Below, in pieces: positions 23,489-56,496 of a stretch of 64,000 bases of DNA. The stretch is from a virus. The DNA is taken from the IMG/VR virus record IMGVR_UViG_3300018080_000131, positions 1 to 64,000 of that record. The stretch is one strand, 5' to 3'. How positions within the stretch are numbered: the stretch's first letter is position 1; each line of letters starts with the position of its first letter. The translations under genes were made by a program, and so were the position numbers. The notes below the pieces were generated by a model. The model made no database searches. It worked only from the letters and a program-made list of their open reading frames with translations, and was not told the origin of the DNA.

Positions 23489-24035
23489 TTTAATAGATAA
23501 TTTATTTAGTGATGATTTGGGAAATGATATTAATAGAATTTTTGAACAGATAGACTCTGTTGAAATGTTAATTGAATTGGAAAAAAAGCATAAAAATTTT
23601 AATTATATTAATGCTTCTATTTTATCATATAAATCTGAAATTTTATCTAGAAGAAGTTTGCCTTTGTGGATATTTACAAACCATGTTAAGGAAGTAATTT
23701 CTAGATTTAAACAAATAATAGGTGATGAGAAAAAAGATGATATTAAAAAATTATTTTTTCCTTTAACAAGAGCAGAATTAGTACTTTGTTTAAGTGATAC
23801 TTCTTTTGTTGCTCCAATTCATTATCCTTATAGTCATTATATGATTGTAATTTTTAACCAGATATGTAAAGAAGAAAGAATGTATAATTGTGTTATTGAG
23901 ATTGATTATAACATTGATAAAAATGAAATTAATAATTTAGAGAGTTTATATTCTTCAAAAATTAATAATATTTGTAATAAAAGAGTAGAGCTAATTTGGA
24001 AAATATTTATGGAGGTTAGAAAAAATAATGACTAA
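23481..24035 (+). CDS. Protein of unknown function next to the sulfotransferase
   Basis: 184 residues from ATG 23481, ATGA-type overlaps with both neighbours. Mixed helical with a hydrophobic centre (ELVLCLSDTSFVAPIHYPYSHYMIVIF). More A/T-rich than the flanking polymerase gene. No family recognised. Confidence 0.6.
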   Translation: MNNLIDNLFSDDLGNDINRIFEQIDSVEMLIELEKKHKNFNYINASILSYKSEILSRRSLPLWIFTNHVKEVISRFKQIIGDEKKDDIKKLFFPLTRAELVLCLSDTSFVAPIHYPYSHYMIVIFNQICKEERMYNCVIEIDYNIDKNEINNLESLYSSKINNICNKRVELIWKIFMEVRKNND

Positions 24036-26406
24036 AAAGAAAGATTATTGTGAAACTTGTGCTTTAAACAGGTACAATAGGAATAGGGTTCATTCTCAGG
24101 GAGATTTTAAAACAGCTAAAGTAATATTTGTTGGTGAAGCTCCTGGTAGAAGAGAGGATGAGGAAGGGCTTCCTTTTGTTGGTCAGGCTGGTCAGGTTTT
24201 GAGAGAATGTTTAGAAGAGGTTGGAATAGAAGAGAAAGATGTAGTTTTTTCTAATGTTTGTAGATGTAGACCACCATCAAACAGAAATCCATCTCAGAAG
24301 GAAATGAACAGGTGTATTAAGTATTTGAAGGAAGAGCTTGAAGAGTTTGATGGGTTGATTGTATTGCTTGGTGCTGTTCCTATGAAGGCTTTTTTAAACA
24401 AGAAAGGAGTTTTGAATAATAGAGGTTATGGGTTTATGAAGGATGGTAGGCATTTCTTTGTTACATACCATCCATCTTATGTATTGAGAAATAGAGGTAA
24501 TAAGGAAATAAGAGATGAGTTTGTAGAGGATTTAGGTAAGGTTAGAACATGGATGAATGGAATTGAGTATGTTCCTTTTACAAAGATTGAAAATTGGGAA
24601 GGGCTTGATAAATTTATAGAGAAGGCTAAGAAGGCTAAGTACATTTCATTTGATATTGAGACTAATGGTTTAGACCCATATGCTGAAGGAGCTAAGATTC
24701 TATCAATTGCTTTTTCTTGGGGTAAGGAGAAGGATGAGAATTATTTTATTCCTTTAGCTTATCCAGGTTCACCATTTGAATATAAGGTTGCTGTTCTTTT
24801 AACTAGATTGGAATTTTTGTTTAATGACCAGGATAAGTGTCTTATAGGACAGAATCCAGGTTTTGATATTAAGTGGATAAAAAAACATGCTATGATTGAG
24901 GTTACTAATCTCTGGTTTGATACCAAGTTTGCAAGTTATTTGATAAATGGGAAATGGAAACCACAGAACTTAAAGAGTATGGTTTGGAAGTATCTTGATT
25001 ATGGTGGATATGGAATTGATAGAGATGGTTTAGAGAATGAGGATATAGAAAGACTTGCTAAATATAATGTTATGGATGCTTTTTGTACTCTAGAGCTTGT
25101 GAAGGTGTTTATGGATAAGCTTTCTGATAAGCAGTTTTCTTTAATGACAGAAACAATGAGTGGTGCTATTTCTGCTTTGGCTGAGATGGAAGCTGTTGGG
25201 TTGACAATAGCAAAAGAAGAGCTTGAGGAAATGAGTAATGAATATTATGAGAAGTTAACAGAGTTGGAAGAAAAAATGCACAAGTATCCTAAGATTCAAG
25301 AGTATGAGAGGAAGAATAAGGAGTTGATTAACTTCAATTCAACTAAGCAGTTGGTAAAGGTGTATGATATTCTTGGTATTCATCCAGATAAGAAAACATT
25401 AAAAACAGATGAGTTTTCTACAGATGTAGAAGCTTTGAATCAGGTGAAAGGAAAGCATAAGTTTTTTGATGATTTACTTGAGTATAGGAAGGCTGTAAAG
25501 ATTTATAGTACTTATCTTCATCCATATATGGAAGAGAAGGCTGAGGCTGTTAGAACTTCTTATAATACTACATTTACTGTTACTGGTAGGTTGAGTTCTA
25601 ATAATCCTAATCTTCAGAATATTCCATATGGGGTAAGACCAGTGTTTACAGCTAGTCAGGATTTTCTGGTTGAGATTGATTATAGCCAGTTGGAGCTTAG
25701 GGTTTTGGCTATGTATTCCAAGGATGAGGCTTTAATTGATGCATTTAGAACAGGTAAAGATATTCATGAGGTTACAAGATTTGAGATTTATGGGGATAAT
25801 TCAAAGTTACCAGATGATAAGCAGGTGGAGCAGAGAGTACAGGCTAAAACAGTGAATTTTGGAATTGTGTATGGAATAAGTGAATATGGGTTAGCACACA
25901 GGTTGGAGTTGACAGAAGAGAAAGCTGGGGAAATGATTAAAATTTTCTTGAATAAGTATAAAGGTGTTGCTGAATTTAACAAGAGTGTGAAAAAGTTTGT
26001 AAGGGAAAATGGATATTATGAAACTTTCTTTGGTAGGGTTAGGGAGTTTGATTTTAATAATCCTGCATTGAGAAGGGTTGCTGGTCATTCTAAAAGAAAG
26101 ATGATAGATAGTTTGTATAGAGAAGCTGTTAATTTTCCTATTCAGAGTACAGCTAGGGATTTGGTGTTTGATGCTCAGGGGAGATTATGGAAAGAGATGA
26201 GGAAGAGGGAAATGGATTCAAGAATGATTGCTGATGTTCATGATAGTATCCTGTTTGATGTTAGAGATAAGGAGCTAGAGGAGCTTTTGGTGTTGGCTAA
26301 AGGGGTTATGGAAGATTTTAGTGAGTTTGATTTTGTTAATGTTCCAGTGAAGATTGATATAAAAATTGGTGAGTTTTGGGGTAAATTGGAAGAATTTGAG
26401 ATATGA
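24028..26406 (+). CDS. Fusion of family 4-type uracil-DNA glycosylase domain and family A DNA polymerase
   Basis: 792 residues. Residues 1-180: C8-x2-C11, C80-x15-C96, GEAPGRREDEEG (36-47), PFVGQAG and a TYHPS motif match Fe-S family 4/5 UDGs. Residues about 205-370: SFDIETNG and later acidic motifs of a 3'-5' exonuclease. Residues about 400-792: polymerase motif A VEIDYSQLELR (about 549), motif B KTVNFGIVYG (about 603) and motif C VHDS (about 737). This is the phage replicative polymerase. The fused glycosylase could edit uracil or sense modified bases. Similar fusions are known in some large phages. All key residues appear intact. Confidence 0.9.
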   Translation: MTKKKDYCETCALNRYNRNRVHSQGDFKTAKVIFVGEAPGRREDEEGLPFVGQAGQVLRECLEEVGIEEKDVVFSNVCRCRPPSNRNPSQKEMNRCIKYLKEELEEFDGLIVLLGAVPMKAFLNKKGVLNNRGYGFMKDGRHFFVTYHPSYVLRNRGNKEIRDEFVEDLGKVRTWMNGIEYVPFTKIENWEGLDKFIEKAKKAKYISFDIETNGLDPYAEGAKILSIAFSWGKEKDENYFIPLAYPGSPFEYKVAVLLTRLEFLFNDQDKCLIGQNPGFDIKWIKKHAMIEVTNLWFDTKFASYLINGKWKPQNLKSMVWKYLDYGGYGIDRDGLENEDIERLAKYNVMDAFCTLELVKVFMDKLSDKQFSLMTETMSGAISALAEMEAVGLTIAKEELEEMSNEYYEKLTELEEKMHKYPKIQEYERKNKELINFNSTKQLVKVYDILGIHPDKKTLKTDEFSTDVEALNQVKGKHKFFDDLLEYRKAVKIYSTYLHPYMEEKAEAVRTSYNTTFTVTGRLSSNNPNLQNIPYGVRPVFTASQDFLVEIDYSQLELRVLAMYSKDEALIDAFRTGKDIHEVTRFEIYGDNSKLPDDKQVEQRVQAKTVNFGIVYGISEYGLAHRLELTEEKAGEMIKIFLNKYKGVAEFNKSVKKFVRENGYYETFFGRVREFDFNNPALRRVAGHSKRKMIDSLYREAVNFPIQSTARDLVFDAQGRLWKEMRKREMDSRMIADVHDSILFDVRDKELEELLVLAKGVMEDFSEFDFVNVPVKIDIKIGEFWGKLEEFEI

Positions 26407-50008: not shown

Positions 50009-50329
50009 ATGGAAAATTTAATAGAGAAAAAACCAAGAAATATCATACAAGCTTTTGAAGAAGAGGAGTTTTTTGGTAAGTCTTTTCCAGGTAAGAAGAA
50101 AGGAAGCTGGGATAAGTGGAAAAGCTTCTTGAAAATTGTATATGGTATCAGATTAAACAAAAGGGACAGGGAAGTTTATGAGAGATGTACTGGTAGAAGC
50201 ATTGATGATATTCCTAAAGGTGGTTTTGAAGAGTTTTATGGGATTGTAGGTAGAAGAGGTGGTAAAAGTACTATTTCTTCATTTATTGCTTCTTATGAGG
50301 CTTTATTTGGTGGTTGGGAAAAAGTATAA
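50009..50329 (+). CDS. terL: Terminase large subunit, N-terminal part (ends at in-frame TAA)
   Basis: 106 residues. The adenine/Walker A region F-Y-G-I-V-G-R-R-G-G-K-S-T at about 81-93 is typical of large terminases, as is the C-T-G-R-S before it. The frame stops at TAA 50327-50329 just where terminases continue with Y-L-A-P-G-E. The frame after the stop (A-P-G-E-T-G-S-V-F-I-V-A-P-D) continues terminase sequence without shift. Either a nonsense mutation, a sequencing or assembly error, or readthrough/reinitiation. Alone this piece cannot be a functional packaging motor. Confidence 0.8.
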   Translation: MENLIEKKPRNIIQAFEEEEFFGKSFPGKKKGSWDKWKSFLKIVYGIRLNKRDREVYERCTGRSIDDIPKGGFEEFYGIVGRRGGKSTISSFIASYEALFGGWEKV

Positions 50330-50350
50330 GCTCCTGGTGAAACAGGAAGT

Positions 50351-51565
50351 GTGTTTATTGTTGCTCCTGATAAAAAGCAAGCTGGAATTATTTTCAAATA
50401 TTGTAAAGCTATGATTGCTGATAATTTTAAAGATATGATTGTGAGAGATACTACAGAATTGATTAGCTTGAAAAATGGAATTGATATTGTGATAATGCCA
50501 GCTAGAATGACAGGTTTGAGAGGTTTTTCAACTATTTGTGTTATTCTTGATGAAATTGCTTTTTTGAAAACAGAGGATTATGCTAATCCAGCAGATGAGA
50601 TTATTACAGCATTAGAACCTTCTTTGAAGGCAAAAGCTAAGTTGATTGGGATTTCTACTCCTTATGGAAAATTTGGTTATTTCTATGATATGTTTAAAGA
50701 GCATTATGGAAAAAGAGGTTCTGAAATTTTAGTTTGGCAAGCTCCAACAACATATATGAATCCAAGGTATGATGTAAGTAAAATCAGAAGAGCTAAAAGA
50801 AGGGATTTGTCAAAGGCTACAGCAGAATATGAGGCTACATTTAGAGAAGATGTAAGTTCTTACATTTCAGAAGATGAGCTTTTGGGGTTAACAGAATTTG
50901 GTATAAAAGAAAGGTTACCAGAAGAGGATATGCCTTATTATGCTTTTGTTGATGTTTCTGGTGCTAGGAAAGATTCTTTTACTTTTGCAATTGCTCATGT
51001 TGAAGAGGATTTTGTAGTTTTAGATGTTATTTATGAAAAAGTTCCACCATATAATATTGAAAATCAGCAACAGATTTGTGCTGATTATTTGAAGAAATTT
51101 GGAATTAGGCATATTGTTGGTGATAAATATGGTGGTGATTTTCCAGTTCAAGGATTTAAGAGGAAGGAGATTCAGTATTATCAAAGCCAAAATCCTAAGT
51201 CTGATTTATATCTTGATTTTCAGATAGTTTGTAATTTGAAAAAAGTGAAATTGCTTGATAATGAAAGAATGAGAAAGCAGTTTATTATTTTAGAAAGGAA
51301 AACAGATGCTTCAGGAAAAGATTCTGTAATTAAGCCAAGAAATACTCATGATGATGTTGCTAATTCAGTTGCAGGAGCAGTAGTAATGGCATATAGGAGT
51401 ATTTCAACTAGACCTTCTGAGGAAGAGCTAAAAAGCAGGATGTTTAGGAAAGTGCATAAAAGAGGGTTGAATTATGATGAGGAATGGGCTAATATTTTGA
51501 AAGAAGCTGAAAAAGAAATGGAAGAGCAGTTAGCTAGAAGAAAAAAAGGAGAAGGAGAAAAATGA
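50351..51565 (+). CDS. terL: Terminase large subunit, remaining ATPase plus nuclease part
   Basis: 404 residues from GTG 50351, in the same frame as the preceding piece ((50351-50009) is 342, divisible by 3). V-I-L-D-E-I-A-F at about 75 is Walker B. Y-A-F-V-D-V-S-G near 195, V-G-D-K-Y-G-G-D near 255 and T-H-D-D-V-A-N-S near 335 are the RNase H-like nuclease acids. CAGGAAGT lies before GTG, so reinitiation is conceivable. Terminase cuts and packages phage DNA. The structure genes that normally follow are not in this window. Confidence 0.85.
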   Translation: MFIVAPDKKQAGIIFKYCKAMIADNFKDMIVRDTTELISLKNGIDIVIMPARMTGLRGFSTICVILDEIAFLKTEDYANPADEIITALEPSLKAKAKLIGISTPYGKFGYFYDMFKEHYGKRGSEILVWQAPTTYMNPRYDVSKIRRAKRRDLSKATAEYEATFREDVSSYISEDELLGLTEFGIKERLPEEDMPYYAFVDVSGARKDSFTFAIAHVEEDFVVLDVIYEKVPPYNIENQQQICADYLKKFGIRHIVGDKYGGDFPVQGFKRKEIQYYQSQNPKSDLYLDFQIVCNLKKVKLLDNERMRKQFIILERKTDASGKDSVIKPRNTHDDVANSVAGAVVMAYRSISTRPSEEELKSRMFRKVHKRGLNYDEEWANILKEAEKEMEEQLARRKKGEGEK

Positions 51566-55529: not shown

Positions 55530-55628
55530 ATGGAAAAAATTGAGAAAATGAAAAAAACTTTGCTGTATAAAATGCTTGTTTATAACAAGTTAAAAGAAAA
55601 AAGAAAAAAATTTCAAAAAAAGACTTGA
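55530..55628 (+). CDS. 32-residue Lys-rich ORF (doubtful)
   Basis: MEKIEKMKKTLLYKML followed by Lys-rich sequence. Stop TGA is inside the next promoter's TTGACA. Weak ribosome binding site (GGTGATAAGTT). May not be a gene. Confidence 0.3.
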   Translation: MEKIEKMKKTLLYKMLVYNKLKEKRKKFQKKT

Positions 55629-55653
55629 CAAATGATAAAAAATGTTTTATATT
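55625..55653 (+). promoter_or_regulatory. Promoter of the large structured RNA
   Basis: TTGACA 55625-55630, TATATT 55648-55653, 17-bp spacer. Unlike the sister promoters no ATG follows. Instead a hairpin TCTTC-AGTTA-GAAGA begins 7 bp after the -10. Confidence 0.8.
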
Positions 55654-55659
55654 GTGATT

Positions 55660-56400
55660 GTCTTCAGTTAGAAGATGTAAGTTCTTTAACAATTTAATTG
55701 ATTGTCTCTTCTGAGAGAAGGGAGTTAATCCACAGTTCATCTTGAGCTTGGGAAAAGTTCCTAGAGGATGGAAGATTCAACTAATCTGAGGATAGGTGTT
55801 GAAAACCTAGATGATTCACCTAGTTAGGAGTAGCTAACCTAATGATGATGGTGGTTGGGGTGTCCCCCCTGACAGTTGACCCTAGTTCTCCAAGGGTGTT
55901 CTTGTTACCAAGTGAGCTTAGTTGCAAGAGCTTGGTACTTCTCCCAGAAGAGACAATAAAATGTTTTCCTTCTAATGGGAAGGTCAACTAGACAGAAGAC
56001 TTACTCATTAGTGAAACAGGGAATTGATTAATGCTTTTAAGTAGGCATGGTCAGCATCTGAGTAGAACCATCTGTGGTAAGCAGAAAGACAAAAGGCTCT
56101 GTTGGCTGTCAGTTCTTTGTGAAGTATTAATGCTTCTTGCAGGTGGAATTCCTGCTCTTCCCATTAGAAGGAAAAATAAAAAATTCTCCTTAGAGTTTTT
56201 TCTGGGAGAATAGCTTAAGAAAGCTGTAATGCATTTAATAGGATGCTGGTGAGATGAGATGGTTATACTAGTTGCCATTTTATCTTCTCAATTCCAGCAC
56301 TATGACTATAGCATAGTTAGCATAATAACAGTTTAAAGCTCTGGTTCTTTGAATCAGGTAAATGTTGGTTATGAAATCCAACTTCTCCCAGAAAAAACTT
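55660..56400 (+). ncRNA. Large structured non-coding RNA (about 740 nt, three long-stem modules)
   Basis: No credible gene lies here, but three consecutive modules are each closed by a long perfect stem. Module 1: 55701-55713 pairs with 55945-55957 (ATTGTCTCTTCTG), then GAGAAG/CTTCTC. Module 2: 55968-55982 pairs with 56157-56171 (15 bp). Module 3: 56196-56210 pairs with 56383-56397 (15 bp, extendable). Internal hairpins include TACCAAG/CTTGGTA, GGGG-TGT-CCCC, GTTAG/CTAAC, GCAGG/CCTGC, TGCTGG/CCAGCA and CTATG/CATAG. A strong promoter sits just upstream. Size, phage context and complexity recall ornate large RNAs such as GOLLD and ROOL, but I cannot confirm family membership. Confidence 0.8.
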
Positions 56401-56467
56401 TGGTGAGTAAAGTATTGTATAACAATAACTTAGAAAAAAACTTTAAAAAAAAAATGAAAAAAAAGAC

Positions 56468-56496
56468 TTGACAAACACATAAAAATGTTTTATATT
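56468..56496 (+). promoter_or_regulatory. Strong promoter with ATG at the predicted start
   Basis: TTGACA 56468-56473, TATATT 56491-56496, 17-bp spacer, upstream ATTGTATAACAATAACTTAG. The following gene has ATG at 56503, 7 bp after the -10, and no ribosome binding site, so initiation may be leaderless. Confidence 0.85.

Follow-up and report, generated by a model that had tools for sequence, protein, structure and literature searches.

A boxA-led, three-module structured RNA predicted in the genome of a tailed phage

Introduction

Why would a phage place a promoter of its own in front of some 740 nt of DNA in which no credible protein can be read? To our knowledge, the function of the large phage RNAs is not known, and they have been discovered family by family through covariation. 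Two of them, GOLLD and ROOL, form RNA-only cages (PMC12286853). The locus considered here belongs to a tailed phage (IMG/VR record IMGVR_UViG_3300018080_000131; 101,074 bp), of which the first 64,000 nt, hereafter the window, were analysed. We find that this locus very probably encodes a boxA-led structured noncoding RNA, whose transcription, processing, and function are deduced from its sequence.

Results

The region between positions 55661 and 56403 is promoter-led, untranslated, and strongly structured. An original prediction, made from the letters of the DNA, had proposed a promoter-driven RNA of about 740 nt, large and modular, with no credible protein, and each of these points was supported. 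TTGACA (55625-55630) and TATATT (55648-55653) are present with a 17-nt spacer and make up a strong promoter of the sigma-70 type (55625..55653, on the plus strand like all features of the unit), with a putative start site at about 55660. Upstream lies an A-tract-rich element (55587..55624) that resembles an UP element and presumably acts as one, in a layout common to six other promoters of the same class. The ORFs of the plus strand are all of at most 60 aa and cross the closing stems described below, and the predicted length and layout correspond to three adjacent modules within 55661-56403. In total, seven near-identical promoters with upstream A-tracts were found in the 101-kb record (9770, 39356, 55625, 56468, 57208, 61905, and 62880), three of which (9770, 56468, and 61905) are preceded by a conserved ATTGTATAAYAATAACTTAG element. 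Six of the seven drive protein genes and run into ATAAGTA near the start codon; the promoter of the RNA is the one without ATAAGTA.

On its 3' side the RNA unit is bounded by the promoter of the next transcription unit (56468..56496; genes 56485 onwards), from which it is separated by a flank (56404..56467) holding the A-rich upstream element of that promoter. The same arrangement bears on another reading, in which the RNA would not be separate but would form a lengthy structured 5' leader, or an attenuator, for the genes that follow. We found no intrinsic terminator in 56404..56467, that is, between the RNA and gene 56485, as such a leader would have it, but the downstream genes possess their own promoter copy at 56468, and we regard this explanation as quite improbable.

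The unit sits in an expanded accessory stretch, with the terminase about 4 kb away on one side and the gene at 67.6 kb on the other. There is no tRNA in the window, the nearest being a tRNA-Thr at record position ~69229. Other features of the phage were recorded along the way. The large terminase subunit (50009-51565) carries one in-frame TAA at 50327-50329, which could be an error, a pseudogene, or recoding, and the corresponding frame of the relative G023 is uninterrupted. A DNA polymerase A with a fused N-terminal uracil-DNA glycosylase domain is encoded at 24028-26406. Between 1723 and 7066 lie a tail-like protein with a long array of CxxC repeats at its end, a 276-aa protein made of CxxC repeats only, and a radical SAM protein (PF04055) carrying CxxC repeats; this trio, kept in the relative G018 (L206) with 53-60% identity, has the appearance of a Cys-rich tail decoration that is modified and encoded by the phage. 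An apparent gap at 46.5-47.1 kb, considered as a further structured RNA (fold z -3.8), was rejected, being a run of small ORFs.

In rRNA leaders, boxA is the site bound by NusB/S10. The beginning of the window RNA contains such an element, GTTCTTTAACA(ATTTAA) at 55681..55697, which matches perfectly the published consensus GYTCTTTAANA (PMC5725501), reads AGTTCTTTAACAATTTAATT in the RNA, and starts 28 nt past the -10 box, so that a boxA follows shortly after a promoter as in an rRNA-type antitermination unit. Directly upstream, in a boxB-like position, lies a hairpin (TCTTC-AGTTA-GAAGA, 55661..55675); boxB followed by boxA is the known order in rrn leaders (PMC10250234). Downstream, the leader strand of module 1 begins 3 nt past the extended boxA. 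With four occurrences in the 101-kb genome, the bare 11-mer consensus is not significant by itself; the case is made by its position, its extension, and its recurrence. Indeed, across 2.3 Mb of DNA retrieved without regard to boxA, the window RNA and one locus of the relative G001 are the only two occurrences of the extended form. Taken together, these features read as an rRNA-type antitermination signal, predicted to recruit NusB/S10.

The body of the RNA consists of three modules separated by short single-stranded linkers. Module 1 (55701..55957) is closed by a helix of 13+6 bp (55701-55713/55945-55957 and 55715-55720/55938-55943), module 2 (55964..56175) by a perfect helix of 19 bp (55964-55982/56157-56175), and module 3 (56190..56403), a likely paralogue of module 2, by a helix of 20 bp (56190-56209/56384-56403) that includes G-U pairing and 17 perfect Watson-Crick pairs. 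The three modules and the 13+6 stem had been correctly foreseen, while the other two stems, given as 15 bp each, are in fact longer. The minimum free energy is -259.9 kcal/mol, compared with -200.5 ± 7.6 in shuffled sequences (z -7.9), and a folding scan of the whole window has its extreme in a stretch over module 3. Pair probabilities reach 0.9-1.0 in the stem cores and are less certain in the internal helices, one helix of module 2 standing at 0.26. We also compared these stems with all other helices in 427 kb, a set comprising the window phage together with eleven records from its relatives. With arms within 300 nt, no perfect inverted repeat reaches 14 bp except the closing stems of modules 2 and 3, and with mismatches tolerated the module stems score 47.5, 46.5, and 42.0 against 43.5 for the best of the others, which places all three among the top five long-range helices. 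Two loops contain 6-nt palindromes (TAGCTA at 55831 and ACTAGT at 56267), a weak hint, and the one sign of oligomerisation, that they could form symmetric kissing contacts. In the homo-oligomers of ROOL, GOLLD, and OLE, which consist of RNA only, kissing loops and A-minor contacts hold the copies together.

Units of ~212-214 nt are bordered by perfect terminal inverted repeats (17-19 bp) that resemble MITE ends, and together with a terminase ~4 kb away they could indicate an element acting at the DNA level, such as a MITE or a site of replication or packaging, in which RNA folding would be incidental. However, no second copy, which a MITE would be expected to have, was found in the genome or in the collections, no GC-skew switch occurs at the site, the internal helices also fold beyond chance, and a dedicated promoter and boxA indicate an RNA. 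We consider this explanation very improbable, and the MITE and replication-origin readings are ranked low, as is the attenuator reading.

Modules 2 and 3 look like tandem paralogues. A covariance model built on module 3 by itself recovers the whole of module 2 at 27.6 bits, a match that default filters miss, compared with 12.7 bits for an opposite-strand control in which the closing helix is kept. In the alignment of the two modules, 22 pairs are changed on both sides and still pair. These changes favour a shared origin and are supportive rather than decisive, because the structure was used to fit the alignment, and it was for their stems that the two modules had been picked. Sequence similarity between modules 2 and 3 is weak (local p 0.048, global p 0.013); modules 1 and 3 show a local p of 0.009 and both contain ACTTCTCCCAGAA. 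A tandem duplication probably gave rise to modules 2 and 3, and perhaps to module 1 too.

This organisation could also be that of a precursor of three small RNAs, where RNase III would cut the helices of 19-20 bp and free RNAs of ~170-220 nt acting independently, for example as regulators or defence decoys. Each of the adjacent modules indeed has its own helix near the length used by RNase III, the linkers are short and single-stranded, and modules 2 and 3 are related. Yet pre-rRNA-like processing fits one functional RNA equally well, and we judge the three-RNA precursor unlikely.

We then asked whether the RNA belongs to a described family. A covariance search, which the original prediction had named as the way to tell a known RNA from a new one, was run on Rfam 15, and no family matched: there were no hits at the gathering thresholds, and at E<=10 the three hits obtained were at chance level, with scores well under the gathering cut-offs. 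The GOLLD (RF02032) and ROOL models in particular gave no match at E<=10 in the window RNA. For GOLLD this negative result is informative, since the same search finds GOLLD in other phages, the positive controls L327, L278, L270, and L372 being recognised with 185-329 bits. The suggested likeness to GOLLD holds in one respect that the prediction had no means of seeing, the leader of promoter, hairpin, and boxA, common to both, and fails for the covariance match. A divergent GOLLD or ROOL, beyond the reach of the covariance models, would agree with the similar size, the phage origin, and the GOLLD-type leader; the lack of a match at E<=10, set against 185-329 bits for the GOLLD RNAs of other phages, the three modules as opposed to two domains in GOLLD, and the absence of an adjacent tRNA make it improbable. 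The window RNA is recognised neither as GOLLD nor as ROOL or HEARO, and we propose it as a candidate new family within the kind of large phage RNA already known.

Homologues were sought in several ways. Searches of phages and plasmids found no sequence similar to the window RNA, no exact 20-mer of it was matched in IMG/VR, and neither the neighbouring proteins as single queries nor the genome_contigs collection yielded relatives. Alignment queries with PolA, class II RNR, and a structural protein did reveal a real, syntenic clade of phages, in whose genomes no sequence homologue of the window RNA was found; the module 3 model, run against these relatives and the boxA loci, gave no convincing match. 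Three of the relatives (G001, G003, and G017) are incomplete genomes, and the largest one fetched, G023, has ~7 kb in the equivalent stretch, with neither boxA nor such an RNA. In G001, a promoter, a hairpin, and a boxA precede ~560 nt of noncoding, structured sequence beside eight tRNA genes (L097, 7060-6440, minus strand). The boxA region reads AGTTCTTTGACAACTTAATA and lies ~30 nt past the -10 box, a promoter distance nearly equal to that of the window RNA; in both loci the box follows a 5-bp hairpin, and both lie upstream of homologues of gene 57246. The ~560-nt RNA has no Rfam match, a modest fold z of -2.0, and a single main closing helix instead of three modules. Leader and locus are common to the two, the bodies are not alignable, and the G001 RNA may be a diverged homologue or a different RNA in the same slot.

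The recurrence of the leader led to a broader view of promoter-boxA units across viruses. The pattern occurs in at least 119 IMG/VR contigs, with chance matches roughly estimated at a few to a few tens. Among the matches listed, a sense tRNA lies within 300 nt in 26 of 84 units, often 25-30 nt past boxA, a hairpin stands directly before boxA in 45 of 76 distinct units (10.6 ± 2.9 when shuffled), and three GOLLD RNAs were reached through the boxA pattern. A fourth GOLLD, in the 635-kb phage LR745206, came from a similarity search that made no use of boxA; it has a hairpin and the boxA-like GTTCTTTGAAATATTG ~510 nt before the conserved GOLLD domain, near the expected 5' start. The hairpin-boxA leader, which is not a published criterion, is thereby present in all four GOLLD RNAs inspected, three of which had been selected by boxA. 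The GOLLD pattern had no match in GTDB genomes, and a promoter-only pattern gave 39 single hits in IMG/VR, without evident kinship. In the part of the literature searched, we found no paper reporting a hairpin-boxA leader for phage tRNA arrays or GOLLD.

Five boxA loci (L266, L268, L271, L289, and L299) were considered as RNAs of ~450 nt and rejected as such, given that they enclose small genes. In L266, L268, L271/L292, L289, and L299, boxA is followed immediately by a helix of some 16 bp or longer, which closes ~430-470 nt holding one small gene, in the manner of a leader-trailer helix around a short mRNA.

Discussion

In rRNA operons, boxA loads Nus factors onto RNA polymerase, blocks Rho-dependent termination, and is thought to aid the pairing of the leader with a distant trailer, where 30S formation depends critically on a leader-trailer helix longer than 17 bp (PMC10250234). 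BoxA complexes protect both rRNA and CRISPR arrays from Rho (PMC12691694). The window RNA presents its parts in pre-rRNA order (promoter, hairpin, boxA, leader strand, domain, trailer, and two more domains), and on this ground we take early and strong transcription, protection by host antitermination, and the folding of one domain after another to be probable. According to the mechanism we propose, boxA would recruit host NusB/S10 and other Nus factors, and RNA polymerase could then cross ~740 nt of untranslated, hairpin-rich RNA without an early stop. The leader strand would be kept close to the polymerase and meet its complementary trailer strand as soon as the latter is made; each long closing helix would form, and the domain would fold as a unit, like the leader-trailer helices of the 16S and 23S precursors. 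The modules may be trimmed or cut apart by RNase III, and the product, probably abundant early in infection, would serve as a stable RNA or RNP scaffold, the role suggested for GOLLD and ROOL. Taken as a whole, we lean slightly towards this reading of an antitermination-protected large phage RNA with pre-rRNA-like maturation into a stable scaffold; that the product works as a GOLLD/ROOL-like assembly, by analogy, is a rather doubtful extension of it.

A wider proposal, possible but held tentatively, is that phages generally borrow host rRNA antitermination through a hairpin-boxA leader for stable untranslated RNAs, such as tRNA arrays, GOLLD, and others. If true, the common leader would give GOLLD, phage tRNA arrays, and the window RNA one expression logic, with a testable dependence on host NusB. 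It would also provide a sequence handle for finding phage RNA families, the triplicated-module RNA being one, including those too divergent or rare for covariance methods. With its three modules and compact size, the window RNA lends itself to both probing and cryo-EM.

Several known systems can be compared with it. We know of no protein partner of ROOL, an RNA that likewise comes from phages or prophages, measures several hundred nt, and is ornate; ROOL is frequently near tRNA islands, whereas the window RNA is not and has no covariance match to it. GOLLD (RF02032; ~800 nt), which phages or prophages encode, often near tRNA genes, is also untranslated and elaborately structured, with a promoter, hairpin, and boxA leader in L327, L278, and L270 and a hairpin and boxA in L372, but the window RNA has neither its two-part layout, nor its conserved 3' domain, nor a tRNA beside or inside it. 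The ICP1 noncoding transcript, abundant and of ~800 nt (PMC7567579), is alike by description in its size, its phage origin, its noncoding nature, and its lack of neighbouring tRNAs. Finally, although the window RNA has three short domains and no ribosomal sequence, it shares with the 16S and 23S precursors a strong promoter, a hairpin, a boxA, and a long helix closing a structured domain.
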